A stretch of 64,000 bases of DNA from Crocinitomicaceae bacterium. GTDB lineage: Bacteria; Bacteroidota; Bacteroidia; Flavobacteriales_D; Crocinitomicaceae. Shown here in pieces: positions 4,141-23,852 of this stretch (within the stretch, counting starts at the first letter, position 1; every line of letters starts with the position of its first letter). The notes under the pieces were generated by a model. That model was not told where the DNA came from, did not search any database, and saw only the letters and a list, made by a program, of their open reading frames with translations. The position numbers and the translations under genes are program-made. The stretch is taken from NCBI GenBank assembly GCA_030830785.1, contig JAURMI010000013.1, positions 124,001 to 188,000 on the forward strand, given 5' to 3'.

Positions 4141-4191
4141 ATAAATAGGTTTTAGTTTTCCTACTCTTTTCTGGCTTTTCGGAAACCGCCG

Positions 4192-4213
4192 TTAAACAAT
4201 TATTAAACAATTA
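4192..4213. repeat. tandem 11-bp repeat upstream of proteorhodopsin
   Basis: TTAAACAATTA occurs twice head to tail with no spacer, 52-73 bases upstream of the rhodopsin start codon. A period of 11 bases puts both copies on one face of the helix, so a bound regulator is conceivable. No perfect TAnnTTTG box is present in this intergenic stretch. Confidence 0.45.
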
Positions 4214-14220: not shown

Positions 14221-14490
14221 TTAACGACGCAGTCCTAAATCTTTAATCAATGCTCGGTATTTCTCAATATCTTTCGCTTTCAAGTAGTCTAATAAACTTC
14301 TGCGTTTTCCTACCAATAACTGAAGCGCACGTTGCGTTCCATAGTCTTTTCGGTTCTTTTTCAAATGCTCAGTAAGATGGGCAATTCGAAATGTGAACAA
14401 CGCGATTTGACCTTCCGTCGATCCTGTATTTGCTTCAGAACCACCGTGTTTAGCGAAGATTTCTTTCTTTTTATTTGAATCTAAATACAT
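14221..14490 (-). CDS. rpsO: 30S ribosomal protein S15
   Basis: Ribosomal protein S15, which binds the central domain of 16S rRNA early in small-subunit assembly. The 89-residue length and the segments GSTEGQIALFTFRI, LTEHLKKNRKDYGTQRALQ, LVGKRRSLLDYL and Y-ALI-LGLRR are canonical. It has its own promoter with a perfect -7 box and a TTG at the right spacing, and an untranslated leader of roughly 50 bases that could hold an S15 autoregulatory structure, although I cannot recognise one. Confidence 0.98.
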   Translation of the reverse strand: MYLDSNKKKEIFAKHGGSEANTGSTEGQIALFTFRIAHLTEHLKKNRKDYGTQRALQLLVGKRRSLLDYLKAKDIEKYRALIKDLGLRR

Positions 14491-14547
14491 GCCAATATTT
14501 GTGTAAATGATTATTATGTAAACTGACCACTTTGATCAATATGGGTG

Positions 14548-14577
14548 CAAAGATACAAACTCTTTTTAAAACAACAA
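14548..14577 (-). promoter_or_regulatory. rpsO promoter (TTG-N19-TATCTTTG)
   Basis: On the minus strand, TTG at 14577-14575, 19 bases of spacer and TATCTTTG at 14555-14548: an ideal Bacteroidota promoter. The -33 element overlaps the T-tract of the terminator of the upstream gene. Confidence 0.8.
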
Positions 14578-16019: not shown

Positions 16020-16027
16020 TAATTTTG
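16020..16027 (+). promoter_or_regulatory. -7 box TAATTTTG for the riboswitch transcript
   Basis: A perfect TAnnTTTG match a few bases before the first conserved base of the cobalamin riboswitch, so the transcript would begin almost at the aptamer. No clear -33 TTG at 18-20 bases. Confidence 0.55.
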
Positions 16028-16032
16028 TAATG

Positions 16033-16184
16033 TTATTTGGTGCTTGCCAATCAAGCTTAATAAGGAATCCGGTTAAATTCCGGAGCTGTATCTGCAGCTG
16101 TAAGTTTCTCAAAATGAGTTTTATAATGCCACTGGTTTTCGGGAAGGCAAAACTCAAAAAGAAACGAGCCAGAAGACTTGCCTC
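16033..16184 (+). promoter_or_regulatory. cobalamin (B12) riboswitch
   Basis: Matches the conserved core of the adenosyl/methylcobalamin aptamer (Rfam RF00174) in order: GGTGCTTGCC at about 16039, AAGGAATCCGGTTAAATTCC with GGAGCTGT, then GCAGCTGTAAG, the B12 box ATGCCACTGG at 16127-16136, CGGGAAGGC at 16140-16148, and GAGCCAGAAGACTTGCC at 16166-16182. Spacing between the blocks fits the family. About 107 bases separate its end from the likely start codon; a short imperfect hairpin around GGG-ATTATTATG-CCC (about 16226-16242) and a later T-run may form the expression platform. Confidence 0.95.
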
Positions 16185-16291
16185 ATAATTGCGTAATAAC
16201 TTCAGATTAAAGTTTATAGCGCCTTGGGATTATTATGCCCTAGATGCATCACTTTTTTCAAAGTTGGAATATGAATTTTAAAATTTTATTT

Positions 16292-17545
16292 ATGAAAAAA
16301 GTATCATTTTTTTTATCACTGTGTTTTTTACCCGGTATTTTTGCCCAGCAATATACCCATCAAGTTTTAATTGCCAACGAAGGTTATTTTGATTTTCAAA
16401 CCAATTCTATAATCGAGCCGGCAACGATTGGTAGCTATAACCCCATTAATCAAGTATATTTCGTGGTCGACACGCTTTTTGGACAGCGTTTTAGTTCCGA
16501 TATACTCATAGATAACGATAGTTATTTTGTTGCCGCGGATACCAAAATATTCAAGTTTGATTTAAACTCACATCAGCAAATCGGGAGTATTGAGCTTCCC
16601 GGAGTTCGGAATTTAGCAATTTGGGGAGATTACTTGATAGCCACCAGAGGTGAGTATTTACAGGCCTTCGATTCTTACTTACAAGTTTTTAATAAATCAA
16701 ACCTTCAACTAATTGTAGCTTTCGATACGATTACTGGACCGAAATGGTCTACTCAAAATATGATTGTATTAAACGATATTGCATATGTAGCCGTAAACAA
16801 CGCGTATGAATGGGGAAATGAAAAAGGATTAATTGGGCAACTCGACTTAAATACCCTGGCGTATGGCTCTGAAATTGATTTAGGGCAGGATGGGAAAAAT
16901 CCTGATAATATGTTTCTATATAACAATGAAATTTACACCGTCAATAATAAAGATTGGTCAGGGACATCAATTTCTAAAATTGATATTAACGGAAATGTTC
17001 AGACACAAAATATAGCAAATGCCACTACGGGTTGTGGCACTTCAGCGCTTCGCGATGACAAAATTGTTTTTCAACTCTCCATGGACAATATTTTAAATAA
17101 TTTCAATATAGCCGCCTTGAATAATGAAGGTCCGATAAATGGGATTGTCAATAATTTTTATGAATTAGCTCAAGACCCAAGCTCTGGTTTTCTTTACACG
17201 AGTGCTACTGACTTCTTTTCAGAAGGTAAAATTTTTGTTTATGATGCAAACAACGACCTTCAAAATCAATTCGATGTAGGTGTTTCTCCAGGTACAATTG
17301 TATTTGATGTACGTTCTAGTGCTTTGATAAATGAAAATGAAAACGATACTAAAATTTATCCAAACCCTTCAAGTGGTGTTTTTAGTTTGATGGGTGGTGT
17401 ACGCTCAAATCCATACCACATTTTCAACATTGCAGGGCAAGAGATTTTAACGGGCATGGAGGCTCAAATTGATTTAAGCCCTTTTGAAAACGGTGTGTAT
17501 TTTTTATTCGATGAAAAAACGTGCCTGAAACTTATCAAAAAATAA
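16292..17545 (+). CDS. BtuG-like beta-propeller protein with T9SS tail
   Basis: Exported protein of 417 residues. I chose the ATG at 16292 because it opens directly into a signal peptide (SFFLSLCFLPGIFAQ); an upstream ATG at 16244 would place 16 polar residues before it. The mature part (about 20-340) has regular repeats of four-stranded blades, e.g. VLIANEGYFDFQTNS, SYNPINQVYFVVD, DNMFLYNNEIYTVNN, and resembles the YncE/DUF5074 propellers that include the Bacteroides B12-binding lipoprotein BtuG. From about residue 349 (KIYPNPSSGVFSL) to the end it has a T9SS type A sorting domain in place of a lipoprotein anchor. It is the only gene between the cobalamin riboswitch and a terminator. A role in capturing corrinoids at the surface is inferred from fold plus riboswitch; binding is not proven by sequence. 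Confidence 0.82.
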   Translation: MKKVSFFLSLCFLPGIFAQQYTHQVLIANEGYFDFQTNSIIEPATIGSYNPINQVYFVVDTLFGQRFSSDILIDNDSYFVAADTKIFKFDLNSHQQIGSIELPGVRNLAIWGDYLIATRGEYLQAFDSYLQVFNKSNLQLIVAFDTITGPKWSTQNMIVLNDIAYVAVNNAYEWGNEKGLIGQLDLNTLAYGSEIDLGQDGKNPDNMFLYNNEIYTVNNKDWSGTSISKIDINGNVQTQNIANATTGCGTSALRDDKIVFQLSMDNILNNFNIAALNNEGPINGIVNNFYELAQDPSSGFLYTSATDFFSEGKIFVYDANNDLQNQFDVGVSPGTIVFDVRSSALINENENDTKIYPNPSSGVFSLMGGVRSNPYHIFNIAGQEILTGMEAQIDLSPFENGVYFLFDEKTCLKLIKK

Positions 17546-17561
17546 GCTCGAATTTTAGTTT

Positions 17562-17593
17562 AAAAAAGGCCGCACCTGTATGCGGCCTTTTTA
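17562..17593. terminator. intrinsic terminator after the BtuG-like gene
   Basis: A-run, stem GGCCGCA / TGCGGCC with CCTGTA loop, T-run. Confidence 0.92.
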
Positions 17594-21149: not shown

Positions 21150-22244
21150 TTAATTTGAATAGATTCGACCATCGGAGAAAACAATCGAATTCAGATTGGG
21201 AAGTTTTACTAAAACTTTGTTCCCATAAATTTCAAAATCTGCATTTTGCATATTGGTGATTTCTTGTAAAACTCCATCAACCAAAGCGCTAGTTCCACCA
21301 ATAATATTTCGAAATACTAAAACATTATTTTTCAACAGATAAGATTGAGGCAAATAAGTTGAAACTTGAATGCGTTCTTGATTTGTATAAGCAAAAAAGT
21401 AAGAGTTTTCTAACCAAACACAGATGTCGTCTTTCACATCCCAATGATCGGTAGAAAAGTTTGATAAGGCCGTCTTTAGCCCATCCTGATAATGCCAGAG
21501 GTTTCCATTTAAATCTTCGTAAACTATAAATCCTCTACCAGCTTTATATTTTTTAATAGGAAAGGTTTCTAATTCTATAAATTCCCCACGGTCGAAAACA
21601 AAGAAAGACTGCGTGTAAGGATCCTTAAAGCAAAATACATCTGTGCCTAGTTGGAAGTCTAGTACCTCTTCATTGTATGTTCCAATTTCATATTTTTGAC
21701 CTCGCCAAAACACAAAATACGTGTTGCTATTGTCTTTGAAAACAACCAAATTTTCACCTAGAATTGCATTCATGGAAAGGCCATTTGTCAGCGTTACTAA
21801 GCTTTCTATTTTTTGATTCCAATATATTTTTAATGCTTGATAACGGGTATCCTCAAAAACAATGATACTGTCTTTTACACTAAACTCTCGACCAAAATTT
21901 GTCAATTCAGTGAATTTGCCATTGTCCCACATTCTTAAACCGTTTGCAATTTTGTAAGCCATTAAATGGTCGGAAACTTGATAGTTGACATTAAGTGTTG
22001 TAACATCTATGCGCGATTTTCCATCAAATAGCTTAAGGTTGCCCCTGGTATCAATGTAAGCAATGATTTCATCACCAGCTTTATAATTCACGATTGGTTG
22101 AATCTCAATTTGTCGAAAAAAACCATCTTGAAAAGCAACGAAAAAATTATTGAAATCTAAGGTTGGGACAAGGCCTTGTGAGTAGCACCCTGTTGTATTT
22201 AGTATTATCAAAAAAATACAAGAAATAAATCTTTTAAAAGGCAT
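21150..22244 (-). CDS. exported beta-propeller-like protein of unknown function
   Basis: 364 residues with a hydrophobic N-terminal signal (FISCIFLIILNTTGCYSQG); the cysteine does not sit in a convincing lipobox, so cleavage by signal peptidase I is more likely. The rest is built of repeats of about 45 residues with the pattern IVYED-NGNLWHY-DG, as in a propeller or similar repeat of short beta-strands. No enzyme motif and no T9SS tail. A perfect -7 box lies four bases upstream of the ATG. It is co-transcribed with the following NlpC/P60 gene, so a link to the envelope is possible but not shown. Confidence 0.78.
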   Translation of the reverse strand: MPFKRFISCIFLIILNTTGCYSQGLVPTLDFNNFFVAFQDGFFRQIEIQPIVNYKAGDEIIAYIDTRGNLKLFDGKSRIDVTTLNVNYQVSDHLMAYKIANGLRMWDNGKFTELTNFGREFSVKDSIIVFEDTRYQALKIYWNQKIESLVTLTNGLSMNAILGENLVVFKDNSNTYFVFWRGQKYEIGTYNEEVLDFQLGTDVFCFKDPYTQSFFVFDRGEFIELETFPIKKYKAGRGFIVYEDLNGNLWHYQDGLKTALSNFSTDHWDVKDDICVWLENSYFFAYTNQERIQVSTYLPQSYLLKNNVLVFRNIIGGTSALVDGVLQEITNMQNADFEIYGNKVLVKLPNLNSIVFSDGRIYSN

Positions 22245-22331: not shown

Positions 22332-23852
22332 ATGAACAAACTTTCATTAACACTCCTGCTATGGCTAATTATGACATTGCACGCCAATGCGCAAAATGTA
22401 TTGGTTTCAACAGGCGCTCTTTTTGAAGGTGAACCTTTTCTTGCAGTTAATCCTAATAATAACCAACATCTTGTTGCTGCCTGGATGGGTTTTCAATTCA
22501 ATCAAAAAATAGTGATAAAAAGTTGCTTTTCATTGGATGGTGGAAATACTTGGAGCACTCCTAATTGGCAATCCCATCAGCAAAGCGGCAACACAAGTGC
22601 TGATGTTTCGTTGGCATTCAATTCAAATGGAGCGCTTTTTATGAGTTATGTAGATTATGACAATGTAAATTTTAGTAATGGAAACATTATCTGCCGAAAG
22701 TCTTTGGATGGAGGAAATAGTTGGGGCATAGCCGTAGTTGTTTGTGATGTCTCGATTTGTCCAGATCAATTATGCATAGACCGTCCTTGGATGACGATAA
22801 ATCCTTTTAATGATGAAATTGTCGTTACCAGCATGAATGCCGATCAACCAAGTTTAATTCAAGCACCATATCACCCATATATATCTACCTCAACAGATAA
22901 TGGCAATAGCTTCACGACCCAAATTTTAGATAATGTTCCTTTTTTATCTGGAAGTGTAATTAATCAACCTATGCCCTCCCCTGCTTTTTCGAACGATGGG
23001 ATCTTTATGGCAATTTATCCCAGTTACGAGCCGTCTCAAAGTCTTTTGCCAAGGTTGATTGAGGTGCAAAAAAACCCTGGGTTAAATCCTTTTAGTTATC
23101 AAATGGCATATCAAGGAGTAGGTTTTGGCACTTCAAATGATACCCTTAAAAGTGCGCCTCACTTGACCTTAGACCCTAACAATAGCGGACGTGCTGCTTA
23201 CTTGTTCGTTACAGGAGCTTTTGGTGATCCTGATATTGCCTTAATCGAAAAAAACAATAGCATTTGGAGTGCACCTCAGCGCATCAATGAGGATGCCCAA
23301 AATAATGGCGTTGTGCAAGATTTAGTCTGGGCAGATTATGACAATGATGGGGATTTAGGTATCTGCTGGCGCGATCGTAGAATGGGTAGTCCTAGTACCT
23401 ATCAAACTTCGAGCGAAATTTATTGTCGAATCAAAAAAGCTGAAGTGTGGGAACCAGAATTTGTTATCAGCCCGATAGTTGCACACGATTCAATCTTACT
23501 TGAAAATGGAAATGATTTTTTAAACGTACAGTTTCAGAACAATTATTTATATACAATTTGGGGCGATGTTAGAACTGGAACGCTTAAAATTTACCTCAAC
23601 AAATTTAACCAAAACACCGGTAGCATATCATTGCATGAAATTCCAACATCAAACACATTTTATCCCAATCCAAGTACAAGATTTTTCCAAGTACCAATAA
23701 ACTTACAGTCAAAACCATACTACATTGTCGATTCAAATGGGCAATTAATAATAAATGGAAACTTATCTGAACAAATTGATTTAAATCATGTTGCCAAAGG
23801 ATCTTACTTTCTTTTTGTAGAAGGTGATCAATACAAATTATTAAAAAATTAA
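22332..23852 (+). CDS. T9SS-secreted BNR-repeat (sialidase-like) propeller protein
   Basis: 506 residues: signal peptide (LTLLLWLIMTLHANAQ), a sialidase-type propeller with Asp-box-like motifs (SLDGGNTWSTP, SLDGGNSWGIA, STDNGNSF) spaced through residues 55-200, and a T9SS sorting domain from about 441 (TFYPNPSTRFFQVP). The arginine triad and the RIP/FRIP motif of true sialidases are not evident, so it may be a non-catalytic or different glycan-binding propeller. The sorting domain resembles that of the BtuG-like protein at 16.3-17.5 kb. It appears to be a single-gene unit. Confidence 0.85.
   Translation: MNKLSLTLLLWLIMTLHANAQNVLVSTGALFEGEPFLAVNPNNNQHLVAAWMGFQFNQKIVIKSCFSLDGGNTWSTPNWQSHQQSGNTSADVSLAFNSNGALFMSYVDYDNVNFSNGNIICRKSLDGGNSWGIAVVVCDVSICPDQLCIDRPWMTINPFNDEIVVTSMNADQPSLIQAPYHPYISTSTDNGNSFTTQILDNVPFLSGSVINQPMPSPAFSNDGIFMAIYPSYEPSQSLLPRLIEVQKNPGLNPFSYQMAYQGVGFGTSNDTLKSAPHLTLDPNNSGRAAYLFVTGAFGDPDIALIEKNNSIWSAPQRINEDAQNNGVVQDLVWADYDNDGDLGICWRDRRMGSPSTYQTSSEIYCRIKKAEVWEPEFVISPIVAHDSILLENGNDFLNVQFQNNYLYTIWGDVRTGTLKIYLNKFNQNTGSISLHEIPTSNTFYPNPSTRFFQVPINLQSKPYYIVDSNGQLIINGNLSEQIDLNHVAKGSYFLFVEGDQYKLLKN

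Follow-up and report, generated by a model that had tools for sequence, protein, structure and literature searches.

A cobalamin riboswitch unit with a T9SS-tailed relative of BtuG excludes the BtuB–BtuG operon in two genera of Crocinitomicaceae

Results

The riboswitch unit and its leader

The unit described here lies on the forward strand of the window, by which we mean the whole analysed stretch of 64,000 nucleotides of Crocinitomicaceae DNA, and it has one gene between a cobalamin riboswitch and a terminator-like stem. The aptamer was recognised by the Rfam model RF00174 at 16021-16199 (+), with a score of 97.2 bits (gathering score 31.5 bits), an E-value of 5e-23 and model positions 1-189 of 189 aligned, so the complete cobalamin aptamer claimed in the original prediction was recovered at full length. 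RF00174 matched nowhere else in the window's genome, whose 1.9 Mb assembly has an estimated completeness of 83%. At the start of the leader lies a putative -7 promoter box, TAATTTTG (16020-16027, +), which had also been predicted and fits TAnnTTTG, a motif that we take to be the Bacteroidota -7 box consensus; at the leader start this motif was exact in 16 of 19 aligned leaders, and the other three had TTCG. The same alignment revealed a conserved hairpin, AACTT-CAGATTA-AAGTT, just 3' of the aptamer at 16198-16214 (+), a candidate for the P13/L13 element of the expression platform. It occupies alignment columns 227-243, and its outer pair is G-C in 17 of the 19 leaders and A-U in the window. 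Folded by itself, the window leader had an ordinary energy (z -0.66); the evidence for the riboswitch comes from the covariance-model match together with the compensatory changes, which were present in 22 of the 41 consensus pairs predicted from the 19 leaders. We also noticed two RNA elements on the minus strand of the window, an S15-Flavobacteria ribosomal leader (14488-14555, 64.9 bits) and a DUF805b RNA (4158-4192, 46.3 bits).

Architecture of the encoded protein

The open reading frame at 16292-17545 (+) encodes a BtuG-like propeller of 417 aa with a T9SS tail, and it is followed by an intrinsic-terminator-like site with a 12-pair stem (17563-17592, +), where a terminator had been expected. 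Its ATG at 16292 is conserved across the 23 rows of the propeller alignment (A3); an alternative in-frame ATG at 16244 would give a protein of 433 aa. The protein begins with a putative signal peptide, MKKVSFFLSLCFLPGIFA (16292-16345, +), that has no lipobox. The same absence was seen in the relatives: the lipobox pattern matched none of 80 propellers (its sensitivity is modest, 8 of 15 operon BtuGs), and the Cys that all 15 operon BtuGs have in common is not matched by any invariant Cys in A3. An [ASG]Q pair was found at the signal-peptide site in all 80 relatives. The predicted beta-propeller domain covers residues about 24-339 (16361-17308, +) and the propellers are acidic, with a mean net charge of -18 in 23 sequences.

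The C-terminus, residues 355-417 (17354-17542, +), was assigned as a T9SS type A sorting domain by PF18962 (34.2 bits, cut-off 27, residues 355-405) and TIGR04183 (28.1 bits, cut-off 23). PF18962 was present in all 23 members of A3, and SprA of the T9SS machinery was found in all nine genomes searched, the window's among them. The predicted tail thus stood for the window protein, although five of 76 complete relatives (L222, L224, L225, L226 and L227) had no recognisable tail, their C-termini being shortened and lacking the [PS]NP motif; the two of these that were run, L222 and L224, gave no match to PF18962. A second T9SS-tailed protein is encoded near the unit at 22332-23852 (PF18962, 31.8 bits); it is weakly BNR-like, below the cut-off, and no Rfam match was found before its gene.

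As had been claimed, no btuB adjoins the unit. Two family searches found no TonB receptor on the window's contig, and there was no btuB match in the 80 propeller loci, with flanks of up to 5 kb that were often shorter. T9SS cargo can be released, and type A tails often anchor cargo to surface lipopolysaccharide. The former would allow the protein to be freed into the medium, to bind corrinoid there and to be regained via a receptor, and the missing lipobox and the loci without btuB are consistent with this; it would then resemble BtuJ on Bacteroides vesicles, which are called siderophore-like in the available part of PMC12751083. We consider such a released corrinophore unlikely, given the frequent use of type A tails for anchoring; moreover, some record titles (pond, LacPavin, LeineEff) hint at aquatic habitats, and in open water dilution would make release expensive.

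Kinship to BtuG

The AlphaFold2 model of the window propeller had a mean pLDDT of 82.7. When it was compared with the PDB by Foldseek, the best 13 of 1803 matches were all BtuG (E 1.2e-15 to 4.5e-14; TM by target 0.73-0.80) and the next was a human pre-60S ribosome chain (E 1.2e-10), so that the exported propeller of the original prediction has BtuG as its nearest solved structure. At the sequence level, a search with the window propeller alone matched BtuG structures weakly (E 0.003), and with a profile of 23 relatives the match rose to E 2e-6. A profile-profile comparison between the propellers and 15 BtuG lipoproteins from this family gave E 1.8e-16 over 317 columns, and these operon lipoproteins are themselves true BtuGs (E 7e-99 to BtuG1). 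In the reverse direction, the profile of the BtuG lipoproteins found the propeller in 14 of the 28 genomes that carry it and missed it in the other 14. The window propeller was 17-21% identical to the operon BtuGs. DUF5074 (PF16819) matched neither the window propeller nor the 23 rows of A3, whereas the two operon BtuGs that were run do match it; the T9SS tail was the one Pfam or NCBIfam domain above cut-off on the window propeller. Hence the predicted likeness to BtuG was borne out by fold and profile but not by the DUF5074 model, because of which we call the protein a remote BtuG relative, as profiles and predicted structure indicate.

The ligand contacts of BtuG2, with the numbering of PMC10404256 in its available part, were then placed on the propeller by alignment. 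The NEG that opens the Asn54-Thr64 loop corresponds to N29-E30-G31, Tyr239 to W222, Tyr316 to Y290 and Tyr335 to F308. This mapping is itself inferred, because the alignment stands at about 20% identity. Among the window protein and its 80 relatives, NEG was kept in 81 of 81 and Y290 in 80 (one His), the F308 position was F or Y in all 81, and the W222 position W or F in all 81. Trp272 of BtuG2 has no aromatic counterpart in the propeller, and Trp194 an uncertain one (Y172 or W174), so of the six named pocket positions four are conserved or still aromatic. A putative lipoprotein propeller starting with SCKE was seen directly 3' of the propeller gene in two loci (L222:6264-7337, 357 aa; L226:6303-7373, 356 aa); the alignment of the L222 protein to BtuG has a probability of 95.9%; this protein is without NEG, and neither Pfam nor the PDB gave a match to it.

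The protein could instead be an exported propeller for some other ligand, its gene simply happening to be switched on at low B12. The identity to BtuG of 17-21% and the loss of Trp272 would agree with that, and riboswitch control alone is no proof that the product binds the ligand. We regard it as very unlikely, as in the fold comparison the E-values of the BtuG chains are three to five orders of magnitude below that of the first other match, the four pocket positions are retained as residue or aromatic character and, as described below, the unit excludes a B12 operon and occupies its slot in several species.

Distribution and pairing with the riboswitch

We scanned 150 genomes of the family and found 32 with a match to the window protein at E <= 1e-3, 28 of them strong (at least 51% identity). 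The strong matches fell into two genera, the window's own (g1; 17 of 19 genomes, including the window's) and g18 (11 of 19). The remaining four, from three other genera, had 22-25% identity; G052, G093 and G003 among them were read and had lipoprotein BtuGs after a receptor gene. An additional partial propeller match was seen in G098.

In the named species collection there were 119 relatives, and the best 80 of these were read. Nearly all (79 of the 80) have record titles that begin with MAG; by title, 67 are Flavobacteriales/Flavobacteriia, five Bacteroidetes and eight other (Chitinophaga, Sphingomonadales). In a comparison of protein cores, 27 of the 80 were identical to one from the family genomes, so the two sets overlap. 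The pairing anticipated in relatives was clearly present: in 79 of the best 80 the ORF was preceded, at a distance of 96-194 nt, by a riboswitch core with at most two substitutions, and the sole miss was a locus with just 13 nt before the gene. Only 22 other matches to the core occurred in 751,646 bases on both strands, hence the pairing is not due to chance. RF00174 was confirmed in all 20 loci given to the model, two of them truncated by contig ends. No homologue of the window propeller was found in plasmid records.

The sister operon

Of 20 sister loci read, 15 had a TonB receptor gene followed by a BtuG lipoprotein gene, in most cases with the gene of a DUF4465 or another exported protein on the upstream side and that of a T9SS-type protein on the downstream side, in the order riboswitch-DUF4465-btuB-btuG. 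For comparison sets, 15 BtuGs (A2) and 10 BtuBs (A1) were chosen from the sister loci and L096, and 23 of the 28 propellers formed A3. We annotated ten proteins from the sister loci and the window unit with Pfam. Both DUF4465 proteins that were run have T9SS tails, and B12 binding by DUF4465 proteins is described in the available part of PMC13398666. The fourth operon gene (L096:4400-5350 and L078:4529-5515) encodes a protein of 316-328 aa, in which PF18962 was above cut-off in L078 and below it in L096, with no other Pfam match.

An origin of the unit by deletion within this operon, which would have fused BtuG to the tail of the fourth gene, was considered and dropped, since the T9SS propellers are 48-70% identical to the window's across two genera, whereas between the window propeller and the operon BtuG from g1 the identity is only 20%.

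Mutual exclusion and the shared slot

Among the 38 genomes of g1 and g18, 28 had the propeller, eight the operon, none both and two neither (Fisher p 9e-7, with kinship among genomes ignored). Seven of the operon calls were made by a BtuB with E < 1e-200 together with BtuG; in the remaining genome, G140, the operon is split over two contigs, with BtuG cut by a contig end and the DUF4465 protein on the other contig. A riboswitch was found in 36 of the 38, one apiece, and in all 28 propeller genomes it stands at the propeller; in G146 riboswitch and propeller are joined across a contig break by an overlap of 149 identical bases. Operon-type BtuB occurred in none of the 28 propeller genomes, nor was a BtuG lipoprotein found in them. 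In the window's genome, 83% complete, no ortholog of the operon BtuB was found, and the same was true of 16 congeners that are 98-100% complete. G132 (99% complete) and G149 (85%) yielded no riboswitch, no propeller and no operon.

It was also found that the two cassettes can take the same place. In g18, the slot between the same neighbours holds the operon in G037, G051, G082, G106 and G137 and the propeller in G090, G119, G125, G130 and G143; the slot is partial in G017, G063 and G113 (upstream pair only) and in G074 (downstream gene only), and in G134 the operon begins near a contig end and other genes follow. In g1, the same neighbours lie downstream of the operon in G136 and of the propeller in G108; the contig of G136 begins just before its riboswitch. 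The window propeller and eight of the 16 other g1 propeller loci adjoin the same phosphoribosyltransferase and murQ-like genes, and the remaining eight of these 17 loci are elsewhere, away from the shared slot. For g18, the trees of two flanking genes needed two changes, though the well-supported branches force only one. Species of both genera thus carry either the propeller or the operon in one chromosomal slot, in part of the species. The unit had been proposed as a different solution from the BtuB–BtuG pair, and this statement is now stronger than first made because the unit excludes the operon and sits in its slot in several species.

The gene at 21150-22244 (-) of the window encodes a 10-bladed propeller protein (PF21734, 306.9 bits), and relatives of it lie near this slot in four g1 genomes compared. 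Neighbouring genes were rejected as partners of the propeller since they vary between genomes and the receptor that adjoins it in g18 flanks both cassettes.

Need for B12 and search for a receptor

B12-binding domains were detected in all 31 genomes searched, in proteins that are, judged by size, probably MetH and mutases. CbiC was found in none of 32 genomes. A BtuC-like FecCD permease was present in 30 of 31, G119 being the one without it; in the seven loci read, its neighbours were a lipoprotein and an ATPase, as judged by eye, and one such lipoprotein that was run was Peripla_BP_2. On these three counts, these bacteria most likely need corrinoid from outside and keep an inner-membrane importer.

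At the outer membrane, plug-domain receptors were found at 130 places in seven genomes, and 90 of these, from five genomes, were clustered; 19 places each in G053 and G108, the family-2 receptor of G000 and the operon BtuB of G136 were left out. Eleven groups were common to all five genomes. All eleven were also present in the operon genome G136, and the five-genome clustering had no group confined to propeller genomes, which leaves the transport step without a candidate. We also observed a second TonB receptor family (A4) of 620-670 aa with a QTGHH motif (L069, L125-L132, L134, L140 and L143). It occurs in 13 of the 38 genomes, namely 12 of the 28 propeller genomes and G132, and in none of the eight operon genomes; with 12 of 28 it was rejected as a general partner.

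The B12 receptor might be one of the shared TonB receptors, capped by the propeller as BtuG caps BtuB, which would be a known mechanism with unlinked genes. The eleven common groups would supply such a receptor and the A4 family, absent from operon genomes, another, yet all eleven groups also occur in G136 and A4 is missing from 16 of the 28 propeller genomes. In addition, the propeller has no lipid-anchored linker, which is a possible hinge in BtuBG according to the available part of PMC10404256. Taken together, we find such a cap somewhat unlikely.

Discussion

We think it probable that a B12-repressed, T9SS-exported, BtuG-derived corrinoid-capture protein replaces the BtuB–BtuG operon in these bacteria and hands its ligand to an unlinked receptor. 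What was computed is the aptamer, the fold class, the tail, the pairing, the mutual exclusion and, in part of the species, the shared slot. Judging from the aptamer, low cobalamin would permit expression of the gene, and the product, with its sorting domain and SprA at hand, would cross the outer membrane by T9SS to the cell surface or the outside. The propeller may bind corrinoids in a BtuG-like pocket. The corrinoid would then be passed to an outer-membrane receptor encoded elsewhere and free of riboswitch control, and its further entry could proceed via the conserved BtuFCD-like importer.

More tentatively, and with some doubt, we suggest a BtuB-independent B12 route in which the whole B12-riboswitch regulon found in these bacteria would consist of one secreted BtuG-derived corrinophore. 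The cassette would have displaced the BtuB–BtuG operon more than once, partly at the same locus, and entry would make use of a receptor, or some other route, to which B12 transport has so far not been ascribed. A secreted BtuG relative that has no anchor and stands in the place of a receptor operon would show that B12 capture and transport are separable. It raises the question of the outer-membrane B12 carrier in these likely auxotrophs, for which the shared slot in two genera, with congeners that have either cassette, offers a natural comparison.

With BtuG1-3 of Bacteroides thetaiotaomicron (8bmy, 8okv, 8bai; 3dsm) the window unit shares the BtuG-type propeller fold, B12-riboswitch control, predicted export, several ligand-contact positions and acidity, but it lacks a lipobox, has a T9SS tail and no btuB alongside, and its distance is seen both in the 17-21% identity to operon BtuGs and in the missing DUF5074 match. 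The Bacteroides BtuGs are lipoproteins tied to btuB; of 112 BtuG homologues, 106 belong to btuB operons and nearly all of the 112 have the lipobox Cys (PMC6143338, available part). BtuJ and other DUF4465 B12-binding proteins are similarly exported binders raised under B12 starvation, but in the available parts of PMC12751083 and PMC13398666 they have a jelly-roll fold and are lipoproteins in Bacteroides, whereas the window protein is a propeller. Flavobacterium psychrophilum also has a B12-riboswitch-controlled outer-surface gene, which in the accessible portion of PMC9723704 is a TonB-dependent transporter near cob genes and not, as here, a soluble exported propeller. In the open literature searched there was no description of BtuG or B12 binding coupled with T9SS in such a manner; both terms are present in PMC12578637, whose available part has another subject. 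With the operon of the same family (L096, L091, L078) the unit shares the riboswitch family, T9SS-tailed members and, in several species of two genera, the slot; the operon has four genes, including a receptor and its lipoprotein lid, whereas the unit has one. New here is the finding that the T9SS-tailed propeller and the BtuB–BtuG operon never occur together in the 38 genomes of g1 and g18, and that species of both genera have either of them in one chromosomal slot.
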